Assembly: GCA_028280735.1 (NCBI GenBank) | Contig: JANQLH010000452.1 | Location: forward strand, 1-37,227 | Direction of reading: 5' to 3' | Length of the DNA: 37,227 bases | Source: SAR324 cluster bacterium | GTDB lineage: Bacteria > SAR324 > XYD2-FULL-50-16 | Part shown: positions 22,590-28,329 of the stretch, piece by piece | Layout of the letters: each line of letters begins with the position of its first letter | Position numbering within the stretch: the stretch's first letter is position 1 | Program-made: the position numbers and the translations under genes | Notes under the pieces: generated by a model | Told to the model about the DNA's origin: nothing | The model's database searches: none | Seen by the model: only the letters and a program-made list of their open reading frames with translations

Positions 22590-22743
22590 TAGCATTCTTT
22601 GATCAACAACCAATATTTATCGATGCTGGTTGATAGTATGCCAGCCGGGTTTTGATATTGTTTTCCGGCTCTGAACGTGGTAAAGCTGGAAGAGATGCAC
22701 CGTTGAGACGCAATCAACCTATTACGTGAATTTACGGACCGAT

Positions 22744-22992
22744 ATGAGAGAAGAAGATAGAGTTGTAATGCAGATAATCGCAGAGATAATGGAAGTTGAT
22801 GAGGCCGACATGTCTCCGGATTTGACCATGTACGACCTGGGAGCGGATGAACTGGATATGGTGGAGGTTACATTGGCGCTTGAACAGGCTATGGATATAG
22901 AGTTTCCTGATAGCCGTCTCCTTATCAATCCGGAAAAAGACTCCAGTTTTAAAGTCGCGGATGTAATCAGCATTGCAGCGGAATATTATTAA
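22744..22992 (+). CDS. Acyl carrier protein-like protein lacking the phosphopantetheine-attachment serine
   Basis: DLGADELDMVEVTLALEQAMDIEFPD aligns with ACP [26 protein letters not shown]; a GTG start at 22726 is also possible. Confidence 0.85.
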   Translation: MREEDRVVMQIIAEIMEVDEADMSPDLTMYDLGADELDMVEVTLALEQAMDIEFPDSRLLINPEKDSSFKVADVISIAAEYY

Positions 22993-23352: not shown

Positions 23353-23865
23353 CTACTCGATTTGCAAAATTAACTCGTCTTTGTATACGACCTGACCCGG
23401 GACCACATGTACGGCCTTGACCTTCCCCGGTTTGGGAGCAACAATTTCGTTCTCCATTTTCATCGACTCCAGGACTACTAATGGTTGATCTTTTTCAACC
23501 CTGTCTCCAACGTTCACTGAAATCGACAAAACCTGCCCGGGCAAGCTGGATTTAATGTCACCGTTAATGATTCGCCGACTTGGTTTTGCTTTTTGGGAAA
23601 CGGACTTGATTTTTTCTATTTCCACGTCAAAAGGCAGCCCGTTTAAATATATCTTTCTCGGAAACCCGTCCGCGTGTCTGGCAACTTCAACCGGAAAAAC
23701 CTCATTGTTGACCAACAAGGTCTTGATTCGGCCGTTTGAATGGTATTCTTTAATTTTTACATCAAAGCTTTTTCCATCCACATCGATTTTAAATTGATTT
23801 GAGAGATTATTAACCTTCTCTATTTCAATTGAATACGGTTTATCACTTTTTACGGTATATTTCAT
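23353..23865 (-). CDS. Biotin carboxyl carrier protein of an acyl-CoA carboxylase
   Basis: C-terminal biotinyl domain with intact ESMKMENEIVAP. Confidence 0.9.
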   Translation of the reverse strand: MKYTVKSDKPYSIEIEKVNNLSNQFKIDVDGKSFDVKIKEYHSNGRIKTLLVNNEVFPVEVARHADGFPRKIYLNGLPFDVEIEKIKSVSQKAKPSRRIINGDIKSSLPGQVLSISVNVGDRVEKDQPLVVLESMKMENEIVAPKPGKVKAVHVVPGQVVYKDELILQIE

Positions 23866-23887: not shown

Positions 23888-25408
23888 TTAGAAACCATAG
23901 TCCTTTCTGCTAATCCAGCGGGCAGCAGAGTTCCATAGTTTTGAACGAATTGGTTCACCCTCGGGATCGGCGATGGGCGATTTTGCCGACTCACTGAAAA
24001 GCGAAAGTGCGGCAATCATTGCGGCTATTTCATGATCTTTTTCATTTTTTAAGCCATTCAGCAATGCGAGTCGATTCTGAGACTTGGTAATGTAAGAGAT
24101 GTTCATATTTCTTGATTTAAACAGGTCAGACTGGATAATTGCCCTGAGAAGAGGAAGGTTGGTTTTTATCCCGTCAATATAACAATTTTGCAGGGCGAAT
24201 CTCATTTTTTGAATGGCTGCTTTTCTGGTCGAATCACGCACGAGCAGTTTGGCAATCATGGGATCATAAAAAGTCGCTACATTATCCCCGCTAAAATAAT
24301 TGGACTGAATGTTAATGCCCTGTCCAAAGGGCAGGTAAAACCGGTCTATTGTTCCGGGGCACGGGGCAAAGTTATTGATCGGGTCTTCCGCGCAAATGGA
24401 TACACTGATAACGTGTCCGTTTCTGTTTAGGTTTTCCTGTCTGACTTTTAGCGGATCACCGGAAAAAATGCGGATTTGTTCTTTAAGCAGATCCACACCG
24501 GTTAATTGACTGGTCGCGGTATAAAAAGGTTGGATGTATCCGTTGATCTTAAGAAAATAGATTTCATCTCCGTCAACAAGGAATACAACAGACACGAATC
24601 CGGTGGCGTCCAACCTATTCACAACTTTTCTGATGATGGATTCTATTTTTTTTCTTTTTTCCTCATCTATAACCCTGGAAGGAGTTTCAACCAGAATCTT
24701 TTGAAACCGCCGCTGGACCGAGCACCATTGCTCAGGAAAGATAATAACGTTTTTATGATGATCTCGCAGAACAGGGAATTCAATATGATGAGCATTTTCG
24801 AAATACTTTTCCACAAACACTTCTCTTGAGTTCATGGAATATTTTTCACAGCGGGACAGCACATAGTTATAAGCTGATTTTAATTCCCTGGGATTATAGA
24901 CCAGCTTTAAACCTTTACCGCCATAACCATGAACGGCTTTTAGGAGCAAAGGATAGCCGATATCATCTGCTGCAACCTTTAATTCATTATAATCCTGACA
25001 TTTAGTAGAACCAGGCAGGATCGCCAATCCCAGTCGCCTTGCACGTTCCTTTACAAAAGGACGGTTAGCCAGATTCATTGCTCCTTCCAATTCCGGAGCG
25101 ATGGTGACGATGCCTTTTTGTCGTAGTTTTTTGGTAAATTCAGCATTCTGAGCGAGAAAGCCATAGCCTGAATGCACGGCATCCACTTTTAAAGAGGCGG
25201 CAAGTTCAACGATCTGATCAATATCCGCGTAAGCCCGCGATGAAACGGAGGATTTTAACTCATAGGATTCATCGGCATTGCGCACTCCGGCACTGTTTCT
25301 ATCTTCATCCTCGAAGATCGTGATAGCTTTGCCTCCAAGCTCTTGCACAGCCCGGACACAATTTGCCTGAATCAACCCGCGATTGGCGATTAATACTTTG
25401 GAAAACAT
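23888..25408 (-). CDS. Biotin carboxylase-like protein, predicted catalytically inactive
   Basis: Ungapped similarity to AccC-type proteins (KVLIANRG, GYGFL, VFVEKYFENAHHIE, TGVDLLKEQIRI, IDGIKTNLPL) but active-site residues substituted. Confidence 0.85.
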   Translation of the reverse strand: MFSKVLIANRGLIQANCVRAVQELGGKAITIFEDEDRNSAGVRNADESYELKSSVSSRAYADIDQIVELAASLKVDAVHSGYGFLAQNAEFTKKLRQKGIVTIAPELEGAMNLANRPFVKERARRLGLAILPGSTKCQDYNELKVAADDIGYPLLLKAVHGYGGKGLKLVYNPRELKSAYNYVLSRCEKYSMNSREVFVEKYFENAHHIEFPVLRDHHKNVIIFPEQWCSVQRRFQKILVETPSRVIDEEKRKKIESIIRKVVNRLDATGFVSVVFLVDGDEIYFLKINGYIQPFYTATSQLTGVDLLKEQIRIFSGDPLKVRQENLNRNGHVISVSICAEDPINNFAPCPGTIDRFYLPFGQGINIQSNYFSGDNVATFYDPMIAKLLVRDSTRKAAIQKMRFALQNCYIDGIKTNLPLLRAIIQSDLFKSRNMNISYITKSQNRLALLNGLKNEKDHEIAAMIAALSLFSESAKSPIADPEGEPIRSKLWNSAARWISRKDYGF

Positions 25409-25420
25409 TTTATATCATTG

Positions 25421-27034
25421 TTATAGAGGTATGTTGCCATGCTTTCTTTTCGGCATTTCAACACTTTTACCGATAAGTGTGCTGAGGTGAGTGATGATAA
25501 TACTTCTGGTTTCTTTTGGTTCGATAACGTCATCAATGTAACCCAGAGATGCCGCATATTTCGGATTGGTAATCGATTCCATGTACTCTTTTTCGCACTC
25601 TTCCGTCTTTTTGGCCGGATCACTGGCTTCTTTTATCTCTTGCTTGAATACTATGGTCACGGCGGCTTTTGGTCCCATTACTGCGATTTCAGAGCCCGGC
25701 CAGGCTAACACGACATCTGCACCAAGATGCTTGGAACACATACAAATGTAAGCACCACCATAAGCCTTCCTTAAAACAACAGTCAGTTTGGGAACGGTGG
25801 CTTCGCTATACGCATAAAGCAACTTCGCACCATGTCTAATGATACCCGAGTATTCCTGGTCAGTACCTGGCAGAAAACCCGGAACATCAACCAATGTCAA
25901 CAAAGGAATATTAAAAGCATCACAAAACCTTACAAATCGAGCGGCTTTGTCCGAAGCGTTGATATCCAGACAACCGGCCAGCTCCACGGGGTTATTGGCG
26001 ACAATACCGATAGTATATCCCTCCAACCTCGCAAACCCGATGGTGATGTTCTTTGCAAAACCGGCCTGTAGCTCGAAAAATGACGAGTCATCAACTATAA
26101 AATCAATCACTTGTCTCATTTTATAAGCCTTGGTGGTTTGCGATGGAACCAGGTTTTCTTGCGGAATTTCCTTGTGTTGAGCGGTATCGATGTTGTTATA
26201 AAAAGGAGGTGACTCAAGGTTGTTGGCCGGTAAATAGGAAAGTAGGCGTTTTACCCAATCCAGGGTGGATTCATCGTCTTCCCCCACATAGGCAGCAACT
26301 CCGGACTGGGACATGTGAACATCGGGCCCGCCAAGCTCATCTTTGGTTACGGTTTCTCCGGTCACGGTTTTAATGATGTCGGGACCGGTAATAAACATGT
26401 TGGAGGTGTCTTTTACCATGGCAATGAAGTCCGTTATTCCGGGTGAATACACAGCACCGCCAGCGCAAGGTCCCATAATCACGCTGATCTGCGGAATAAC
26501 ACCTGAAGCTTTGGTGTTTCTAAAAAATACTTCACCGTAACCGGAAAGCGCCGATATTCCTTCCTGAATCCGAGCTCCCACGGAATCGTTTAGAGTGACA
26601 AGAGGAGCACCGTTTTGAATGGCCAAATCCATGATGTTTGCGATTTTTTTTCCATGCATTTCACCAAGAGATCCCCCCAGAACCGTAAAATCTTGAGCTG
26701 CGCAATAGACCAGCTGACCATTGATTCGCCCGAATCCTGTTACAACTCCATCTCCGGCGGTTTTACTTTTAGAAAGGCCAAAATTTTCATTTCGCAGTTC
26801 AATAAAACCACCGACTTCTGTAAAGGTATCGGGGTCAAACAGATATTCAATTCTCTGCCAGACAGTCATTTTACCTCGAATGTTTTGGGCTTTAAGCCTA
26901 TCACCGCCTCCACCCAGTTTCATTAATACCTTTTCTTGCTTTAGATTCTTGATACGTTCCGAGTTTATTTTATCTATTTGCACAGTAAGCGCTCCAATAT
27001 TTGTCTGGTTACCAGCCATATGTTCTGCTTCCAT
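25421..27034 (-). CDS. Acyl-CoA carboxylase carboxyltransferase subunit (propionyl/methylmalonyl-CoA type)
   Basis: GGSLGEMHGKKI, GARIQEG, MGPCAGGAVYSP, VDVPGFLPGTDQEYSGIIRHGAKLLYAYSEATVPK, RKAYGGAYICM. Confidence 0.95.
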   Translation of the reverse strand: MEAEHMAGNQTNIGALTVQIDKINSERIKNLKQEKVLMKLGGGGDRLKAQNIRGKMTVWQRIEYLFDPDTFTEVGGFIELRNENFGLSKSKTAGDGVVTGFGRINGQLVYCAAQDFTVLGGSLGEMHGKKIANIMDLAIQNGAPLVTLNDSVGARIQEGISALSGYGEVFFRNTKASGVIPQISVIMGPCAGGAVYSPGITDFIAMVKDTSNMFITGPDIIKTVTGETVTKDELGGPDVHMSQSGVAAYVGEDDESTLDWVKRLLSYLPANNLESPPFYNNIDTAQHKEIPQENLVPSQTTKAYKMRQVIDFIVDDSSFFELQAGFAKNITIGFARLEGYTIGIVANNPVELAGCLDINASDKAARFVRFCDAFNIPLLTLVDVPGFLPGTDQEYSGIIRHGAKLLYAYSEATVPKLTVVLRKAYGGAYICMCSKHLGADVVLAWPGSEIAVMGPKAAVTIVFKQEIKEASDPAKKTEECEKEYMESITNPKYAASLGYIDDVIEPKETRSIIITHLSTLIGKSVEMPKRKHGNIPL

Positions 27035-27474: not shown

Positions 27475-28329
27475 ATGGAGATAAAGACTTTTGGAGTAGT
27501 TGGTGCCGGGCAAATGGGAAATGGAATTGCACAGGTCGCAGCAATGAGCGGATTGGATGTCATAATGAATGACATCAAAGACGAGTTTGTAGAAAAAGGC
27601 TTGGCTACAATCACCAAAAACCTGGAAAAAAGTGTCAGCAAGGGAAAACTGCCTGCTGAGGAAAAGGATGTTATTTTAAGAAGGATACAAAACAGCGTCA
27701 ACCTTAAGGACATGGCGAAAGCTGATTTTGTTGTTGAGGCTGCAACTGAAAATGAACCGGTAAAGCTGAAGATTTTTAGAGATTTGGATGAAATCTGCGA
27801 CAAGGGTACTATCCTTTCGACCAACACCTCTTCAATCCCGATTGGCAGAATTGCTGCAAATACAAACAGGCCGGAGCTGGTTATTGGTATGCATTTCATG
27901 AATCCGGTTCCTGTCATGAAGCTGGTAGAAGTTATTCGGGGTATTGCGACATCCGAGGAAACTTTTCAAACTACATGGAATTTATCCGAACAATTTGGCA
28001 AGACACCCGCAGAAGCGAACGATTTTCCGGGATTTATCGCCAACAGAATCTTGATGCCCATGATCAACGAGGCTGTTTTCTGTTTATATCATAATGTCGG
28101 TAAGGCTGAAGATATCGATACGGTGATGAAACTGGGAATGAACCATCCCATGGGACCTTTGGCACTGGCAGATCTTATCGGGCTTGATACCTGCTTGGCT
28201 ATTATGGAAACCTTGTATGACGGATTTAAAGATTCGAAATACCGGCCTTGCCCATTGCTAAGAAAATACGTGGAAGCCGGATGGTTAGGGCGAAAGGCAG
28301 GTAAGGGGTTTTATTCGTATGCCGCTTAA
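27475..28329 (+). CDS. 3-hydroxybutyryl-CoA dehydrogenase
   Basis: GVVGAGQMGNGIAQVAA, STNTSSIPI, GMHFMNPVPVMKLVEVI, NDFPGFIANRILMPMINEA. Confidence 0.95.
   Translation: MEIKTFGVVGAGQMGNGIAQVAAMSGLDVIMNDIKDEFVEKGLATITKNLEKSVSKGKLPAEEKDVILRRIQNSVNLKDMAKADFVVEAATENEPVKLKIFRDLDEICDKGTILSTNTSSIPIGRIAANTNRPELVIGMHFMNPVPVMKLVEVIRGIATSEETFQTTWNLSEQFGKTPAEANDFPGFIANRILMPMINEAVFCLYHNVGKAEDIDTVMKLGMNHPMGPLALADLIGLDTCLAIMETLYDGFKDSKYRPCPLLRKYVEAGWLGRKAGKGFYSYAA

Follow-up and report, generated by a model that had tools for sequence, protein, structure and literature searches.

The window, the whole 37,227-nucleotide stretch of a SAR324 cluster bacterium contig analysed here, encodes a biotin carboxylase (BC) homologue that is a pseudoenzyme: it has the enzyme fold, nearly all of its catalytic residues are lost, and purifying selection retains the protein. 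Its inactivity is predicted from the residues that have been replaced. We refer to this protein as the pseudo-biotin carboxylase (pseudo-BC). An altered BC kept by selection between intact partner genes points to a new, non-catalytic job, and domain-based annotation as "biotin carboxylase" would mistakenly credit the operon with CO2 fixation. Pseudokinases and other pseudoenzymes are well known; no description of a BC pseudoenzyme was found in the literature searched, which left out most subscription journals.

Gene organization of the locus

The following features of the window were considered.

22726-22992, plus strand: ACP-like protein whose phosphopantetheine Ser is replaced by Glu (LGADELDMV); PF00550, 38.6 bits
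23004-23321, minus strand: HU-like protein, 3' of the BCCP gene, named by sequence inspection
23353-23865, minus strand: BCCP, 170 aa, biotinylation motif ESMKMEN intact
23888-25408, minus strand: pseudo-BC, 506 aa, with Biotin_carb_N, ATP-grasp and Biotin_carb_C domains
24521-24553, minus strand: replaced catalytic segment of pseudo-BC, LKINGYIQPFY (E. coli E288 to K, R292 to Y, E296 to F)
25421-27034, minus strand: carboxyltransferase (CT) of the PccB/MmdA type, 537 aa, oxyanion-loop motifs GPCAGGA and KAYGGAY kept
27475-28329, plus strand: 3-hydroxybutyryl-CoA dehydrogenase (3HBDH), a divergent neighbour

The sequence-only reading had described a full-length open reading frame lying between CT and BCCP genes in an otherwise intact operon, and both its extent and its setting were borne out; the segment LKINGYIQPFY was likewise verified on the bases. 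The three BC domains scored 103.7 (Biotin_carb_N), 143.5 (ATP-grasp) and 104.2 bits (Biotin_carb_C). CT and BC, and likewise BC and BCCP, lay 12-36 bp apart in the window's genus; the corresponding gaps in a second genus of the same family were 56-162 bp. In all five genomes that carry pseudo-BC, the order CT, pseudo-BC, BCCP was conserved together with the divergent 3HBDH gene, a nearby ACP-like gene and a recombinase. The HU-like gene is outside this operon core and was seen only in the window's genome (G000) and G002.

Replacement of catalytic residues

Residues are numbered according to AccC of E. coli MG1655 (locus L179 of the genome record), which also served as the pairwise reference. 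Alignment with this protein reproduced the gap-free match of the window segment to AccC YFLKINGYIQPFYTATSQLTGVDL given in the sequence-only reading, as well as the substitutions E288K, R292Y, E296F and R338S and the change from ANRGEIA to ANRGLIQ. Further losses, not listed in the sequence-only reading, were R16N, E87Q, H297Y, V295P, R228Q, Q213P, G164Y and R366N.

Of eleven functional positions examined across an alignment with 103 canonical BCs, nine (K159, K238, E276, E288, N290, R292, Q294, E296 and R338) were invariant in 103/103 sequences, and R16 was invariant in all canonical BCs where the position is aligned. At E276, E288, R292, E296, R338 and R16 the window protein has V, K, Y, F, S and N, and all but the first of these replacements are common to the five pseudo-BCs, including those of the catalytic residues Arg292, Glu296 and Arg338. 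The loss of the metal ligand Glu276, claimed from the window, is true there and confined to the window's genus, as G008 and G009 of the second genus keep Glu; the other ligand, Glu288, is Lys in all five. His236 is indeed replaced by Phe, as had been noted, but the change does not serve as a sign of a dead site: canonical, active BCs have H, N, Y, F, Q or R at this position, and H236F is therefore uninformative on inactivity.

Retained in the window protein were K159, E201, K202, H209, Q233, K238, N290 and Q294; the ATP-side residues K159, E201, K202, H209 and Q233 were kept in 5/5 pseudo-BCs, with K or R at K116. The Mg2+, bicarbonate and biotin residues are thus replaced and the adenine-side residues retained, from which we infer that pseudo-BC is unable to carboxylate biotin. 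Among 92 near-invariant BC columns (conserved at 95% or more), 31 were replaced in all five pseudo-BCs and 57 were kept. Each canonical BC departed from these columns at 0-10 positions and each pseudo-BC at 32-34, and the residue loss is therefore beyond chance.

In three single-chain proteins of about 1,530 aa (L111-L113, in G036, G012 and G019), the BC domain departs at 9-10 of 91 near-invariant columns and keeps the catalytic set.

Predicted structure and possible nucleotide binding

An AlphaFold2 model built on an alignment of 48 sequences had a mean pLDDT of 84.5, with values of 89-93 over residues 271-300 and poor definition of the last 60 residues. Foldseek matches to this model were solved BCs, the best being 7kct (TM 0.84 by query and 0.93 by target, rmsd 1.9). 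By the model and the domain matches, the BC fold is retained, in agreement with the sequence-only reading, and the gap-free alignment gives no hint of other Glu or Arg residues having assumed the catalytic role.

The change E288K is that of an E. coli BC mutant whose ATP complex has been solved (PDB 1dv2), in which it makes ATP binding more stable even though the two Mg ions are absent (PMC4922591). This precedent, together with the ATP-side residues kept in all five proteins, could favour a regulator: pseudo-BC would hold ATP or ADP but not turn it over, and would switch or inhibit CT-BCCP according to nucleotide state. We regard such a role as unlikely, given that there is no sign of a regulatory partner and that fold constraint alone could account for the kept residues.

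Orthologues and selection

Whole-genome searches revealed pseudo-BC orthologues with 63-78% identity in G001 and G002 (window's genus) and in G008 and G009 (second genus), and the motif FLK[IV]NGYIQPFYT was present in all of them. By profile and motif searches, the altered protein occurred in the same operon in 5 of 52 phylum genomes, from two genera of one family. A canonical-form orthologue, which the sequence-only reading had named as the mark of an assembly-specific or decaying allele, was found in none of the 52. The remaining five genomes of the family (G003-G007) have no PccB-type CT. A contig search for relatives returned at least 80 loci, and among the matches listed all were at most 38% identical to pseudo-BC. 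Since the five pseudo-BC genomes form one clade, phyletic correlations among them are not independent.

The dN/dS of pseudo-BC was 0.045 (dS 1.55) between G008 and G009, the sole pair with unsaturated dS, compared with 0.030 for CT and 0.027 for 3HBDH. For the other, saturated pairs dN was compared instead, giving 0.14-0.26 for pseudo-BC; in the same genomes, the canonical MCC-type BC had values of 0.11-0.17. Replaced positions were fixed to one new residue in 25/31 cases, compared with 173/357 canonically variable positions (Fisher p = 6e-4). At 23 of the 25 fixed sites more than one codon is used, indicating that synonymous change continued while the new residue stayed. In the BC tree, the pseudo-BC stem measured 3.4 changes per column and was followed by short branches, its placement among canonical BCs being weakly supported. 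Taken together, dN/dS, dN, fixed sites and tree read as one burst of change followed by strong constraint.

The view that the gene is a retained pseudoenzyme and not a decaying one was thus upheld, with four orthologues sharing the replaced residues, dN/dS far below 1 and fixed sites. Decay, an assembly artefact or a frameshifted allele might be entertained because the window's genome is assembled in fragments (511 contigs, 88% completeness), but five separate assemblies all carry the gene at full length, its dN/dS is near 0.05 and its synteny is conserved, and we consider this reading practically excluded.

The stronger conservation of replaced pocket positions than of canonically variable ones could also be expected if the pocket had been rebuilt for a different reaction, with the conserved Lys, Tyr, Phe and Pro as a new active site. 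This is very unlikely: ATP-grasp chemistry requires acidic metal ligands, of which the window's genus has neither, and the proteins encoded alongside pseudo-BC in the operon belong to biotin carboxyl transfer.

The partner proteins and a proposed split BT domain

CT kept 143 of 164 near-invariant columns and had 13 replaced, including G147 and G152 near DSGGARIQEG, so that its activity and substrate are not assured. Its best solved match was the PccB-type CT 1vrg (E 3.5e-195), and in the CT tree the window protein fell within the PccB/MmdA clade, a position that fits a carboxylase as well as a decarboxylase. The conserved changes G147T/M and G152V near the DSGGARIQEG loop may reflect an altered substrate. 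In BCCP the ESMKMEN motif was present in 5/5 genomes, while the rest of the protein varied (46-52% identity to the window's BCCP). Compared with a PCC-type complex with a functional BC, the operon has the CT oxyanion loops and the BCCP biotinyl-Lys motif, and its own BC fails by its residues; with CT and BCCP intact, the damage is concentrated in BC.

Residues ~443-506 of pseudo-BC matched the start of the BT domain, and the N-terminal ~100 aa of BCCP matched its remainder. In fused PccA proteins the order is BC, then BT domain, then BCCP, and the BT-BCCP part of 33 of them aligned globally with pseudo-BC tail and BCCP joined into one sequence (E 4e-34). Locally, the match to fused PccA was best from SLWNSAARW in the tail through BCCP, with low alignment confidence over the tail helix. 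These matches suggest that the tail and the N-terminal half of BCCP form one split BT domain. A tail that depends on a partner would be poorly defined when modelled alone, which is what the model showed. The same gene order and tail recur in canonical CT-BC-BCCP operons of Chloroflexota.

Other carboxylase and decarboxylase genes

A canonical BC elsewhere in the genome, for which the sequence-only reading had advised a search, does exist: G000 has an MCC-like operon (C434) and a pyruvate carboxylase (C200), its only canonical BCs. MCC-like BCs were present in G000, G001, G002 and G009, and ACC-like BCs in G001, G002 and G009. The locus might thus still encode an ATP-dependent acyl-CoA carboxylase in which an MCC-like or ACC-like BC carboxylates BCCP in trans and pseudo-BC serves only as a docking or assembly partner. 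In actinobacteria, BC subunits shared between heteromeric complexes are known, which lends this some weight, and no fused PccA was found among the BC reading frames of G000-G002, so that a propionyl-CoA carboxylase there would need a borrowed BC. On the other hand, pseudo-BC would occupy the usual place of the active BC, and the canonical BCs already have a CT in their own operons, as well as a BCCP wherever the contig covers it. We therefore rate this arrangement as possible, though doubtful.

In four genomes (G000, G001, G002 and G009; loci L136 on contig C386 of G000, L138, L140 and L142), genes for CT, BCCP, OAD_beta and a small OadG-like protein form an operon that adjoins an epimerase-like gene, with mutase genes as well on those contigs that include them; apart from CT, BCCP and OAD_beta, the genes were named by sequence inspection. 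From its gene content, this operon is likely a sodium-pumping methylmalonyl-CoA decarboxylase of the MmdA-D-C-B type, and BC-free methylmalonyl-CoA chemistry seems to be present in these bacteria. OAD_beta lies on contig C386 and not on C356, and the membrane beta subunit is absent from the pseudo-BC operon.

A lone PccB/MmdA-type CT, with no adjoining BC or BCCP, is kept in the window's genus (L135 on C292 of G000, L139 on C62 of G001 and L141 on C93 of G002).

The ACP-like neighbour

The ACP-like protein has LGADELDMV where eight canonical ACPs of relatives have LGADSLDTV (DSL to DEL), the Glu codon being GAA or GAG. Its orthologues (65-85% identity) were confined to the five pseudo-BC genomes, all of which have the gene next to the operon, whereas the ACP present in 30 of the other genomes searched was more distant. 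Common descent within a single clade would suffice to account for this co-occurrence. A BC-free transcarboxylase combining a BC frozen as a Mg2+-independent, ATP-holding scaffold with a Glu-ACP that has no cofactor site, as two paired "pseudo" components, would be a long shot.

Proposed role of pseudo-BC

We consider that pseudo-BC probably serves as a structural subunit in a CT-BCCP complex whose ancestor was a three-gene PCC-type acyl-CoA carboxylase. A structural role is favoured because the adenine-binding side is kept and the tail apparently supplies part of the BT domain. A three-gene propionyl-CoA-type acyl-CoA carboxylase would have become a CT-BCCP complex in which BC was kept as a structural subunit, its C-terminal tail and the N-terminal half of BCCP forming one BT-like domain that would hold the biotin carrier near the CT hexamer. 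Loss of pseudo-BC would then untether BCCP, so the protein could not be dropped even though its chemistry is gone. As a less sure step, E288K may allow a nucleotide to be held as a fixed structural ligand. As to the carboxyl source, we tentatively favour CT running without any BC, at somewhat less than even chances, over loading in trans by a canonical BC, which has a still smaller chance; the locus by itself is compatible with either. In the BC-free case, CT would take a carboxyl group from a dicarboxylic acyl-CoA such as methylmalonyl-CoA and pass it on, in transcarboxylase or decarboxylase mode.

Comparison with known systems

The canonical BCs AccC, PycA and CfiB (PDB 1bnc, 1ulz and 7kct) share with pseudo-BC the whole fold and the adenine-side residues at 31-36% identity, whereas pseudo-BC is without their Mg2+, bicarbonate and biotin residues. 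The E. coli E288K mutant bears the same Glu-to-Lys change, but there it is engineered and single, whereas in pseudo-BC it is natural, fixed and one of many losses.

The three-gene propionyl-CoA-type operons of Chloroflexota (L014 and L030) share the gene order, close spacing and CT family (56% identity), a BCCP of ~165-170 aa and the BC length with a W-rich C-terminal tail; however, their BC has all of the catalytic residues that are replaced in pseudo-BC. With the MmdABCD decarboxylase and the Propionibacterium transcarboxylase, the pseudo-BC locus shares the CT family and BCCP and the lack of a working BC. Those systems are without a BC-fold subunit, whereas the pseudo-BC locus is without the membrane beta subunit. 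As regards the 5S pyruvate-binding subunit of a methylmalonyl-CoA:pyruvate transcarboxylase, the pyruvate carboxylase on C200 was all that came to light.

The nearest precedent found is plant BADC, a non-biotinylated BCCP relative in heteromeric ACCase that acts as assembly "glue" (PMC11926652). Both are non-catalytic relatives of a carboxylase subunit, but BADC is a pseudo-BCCP, whereas pseudo-BC replaces the BC of its operon and does not sit beside one.
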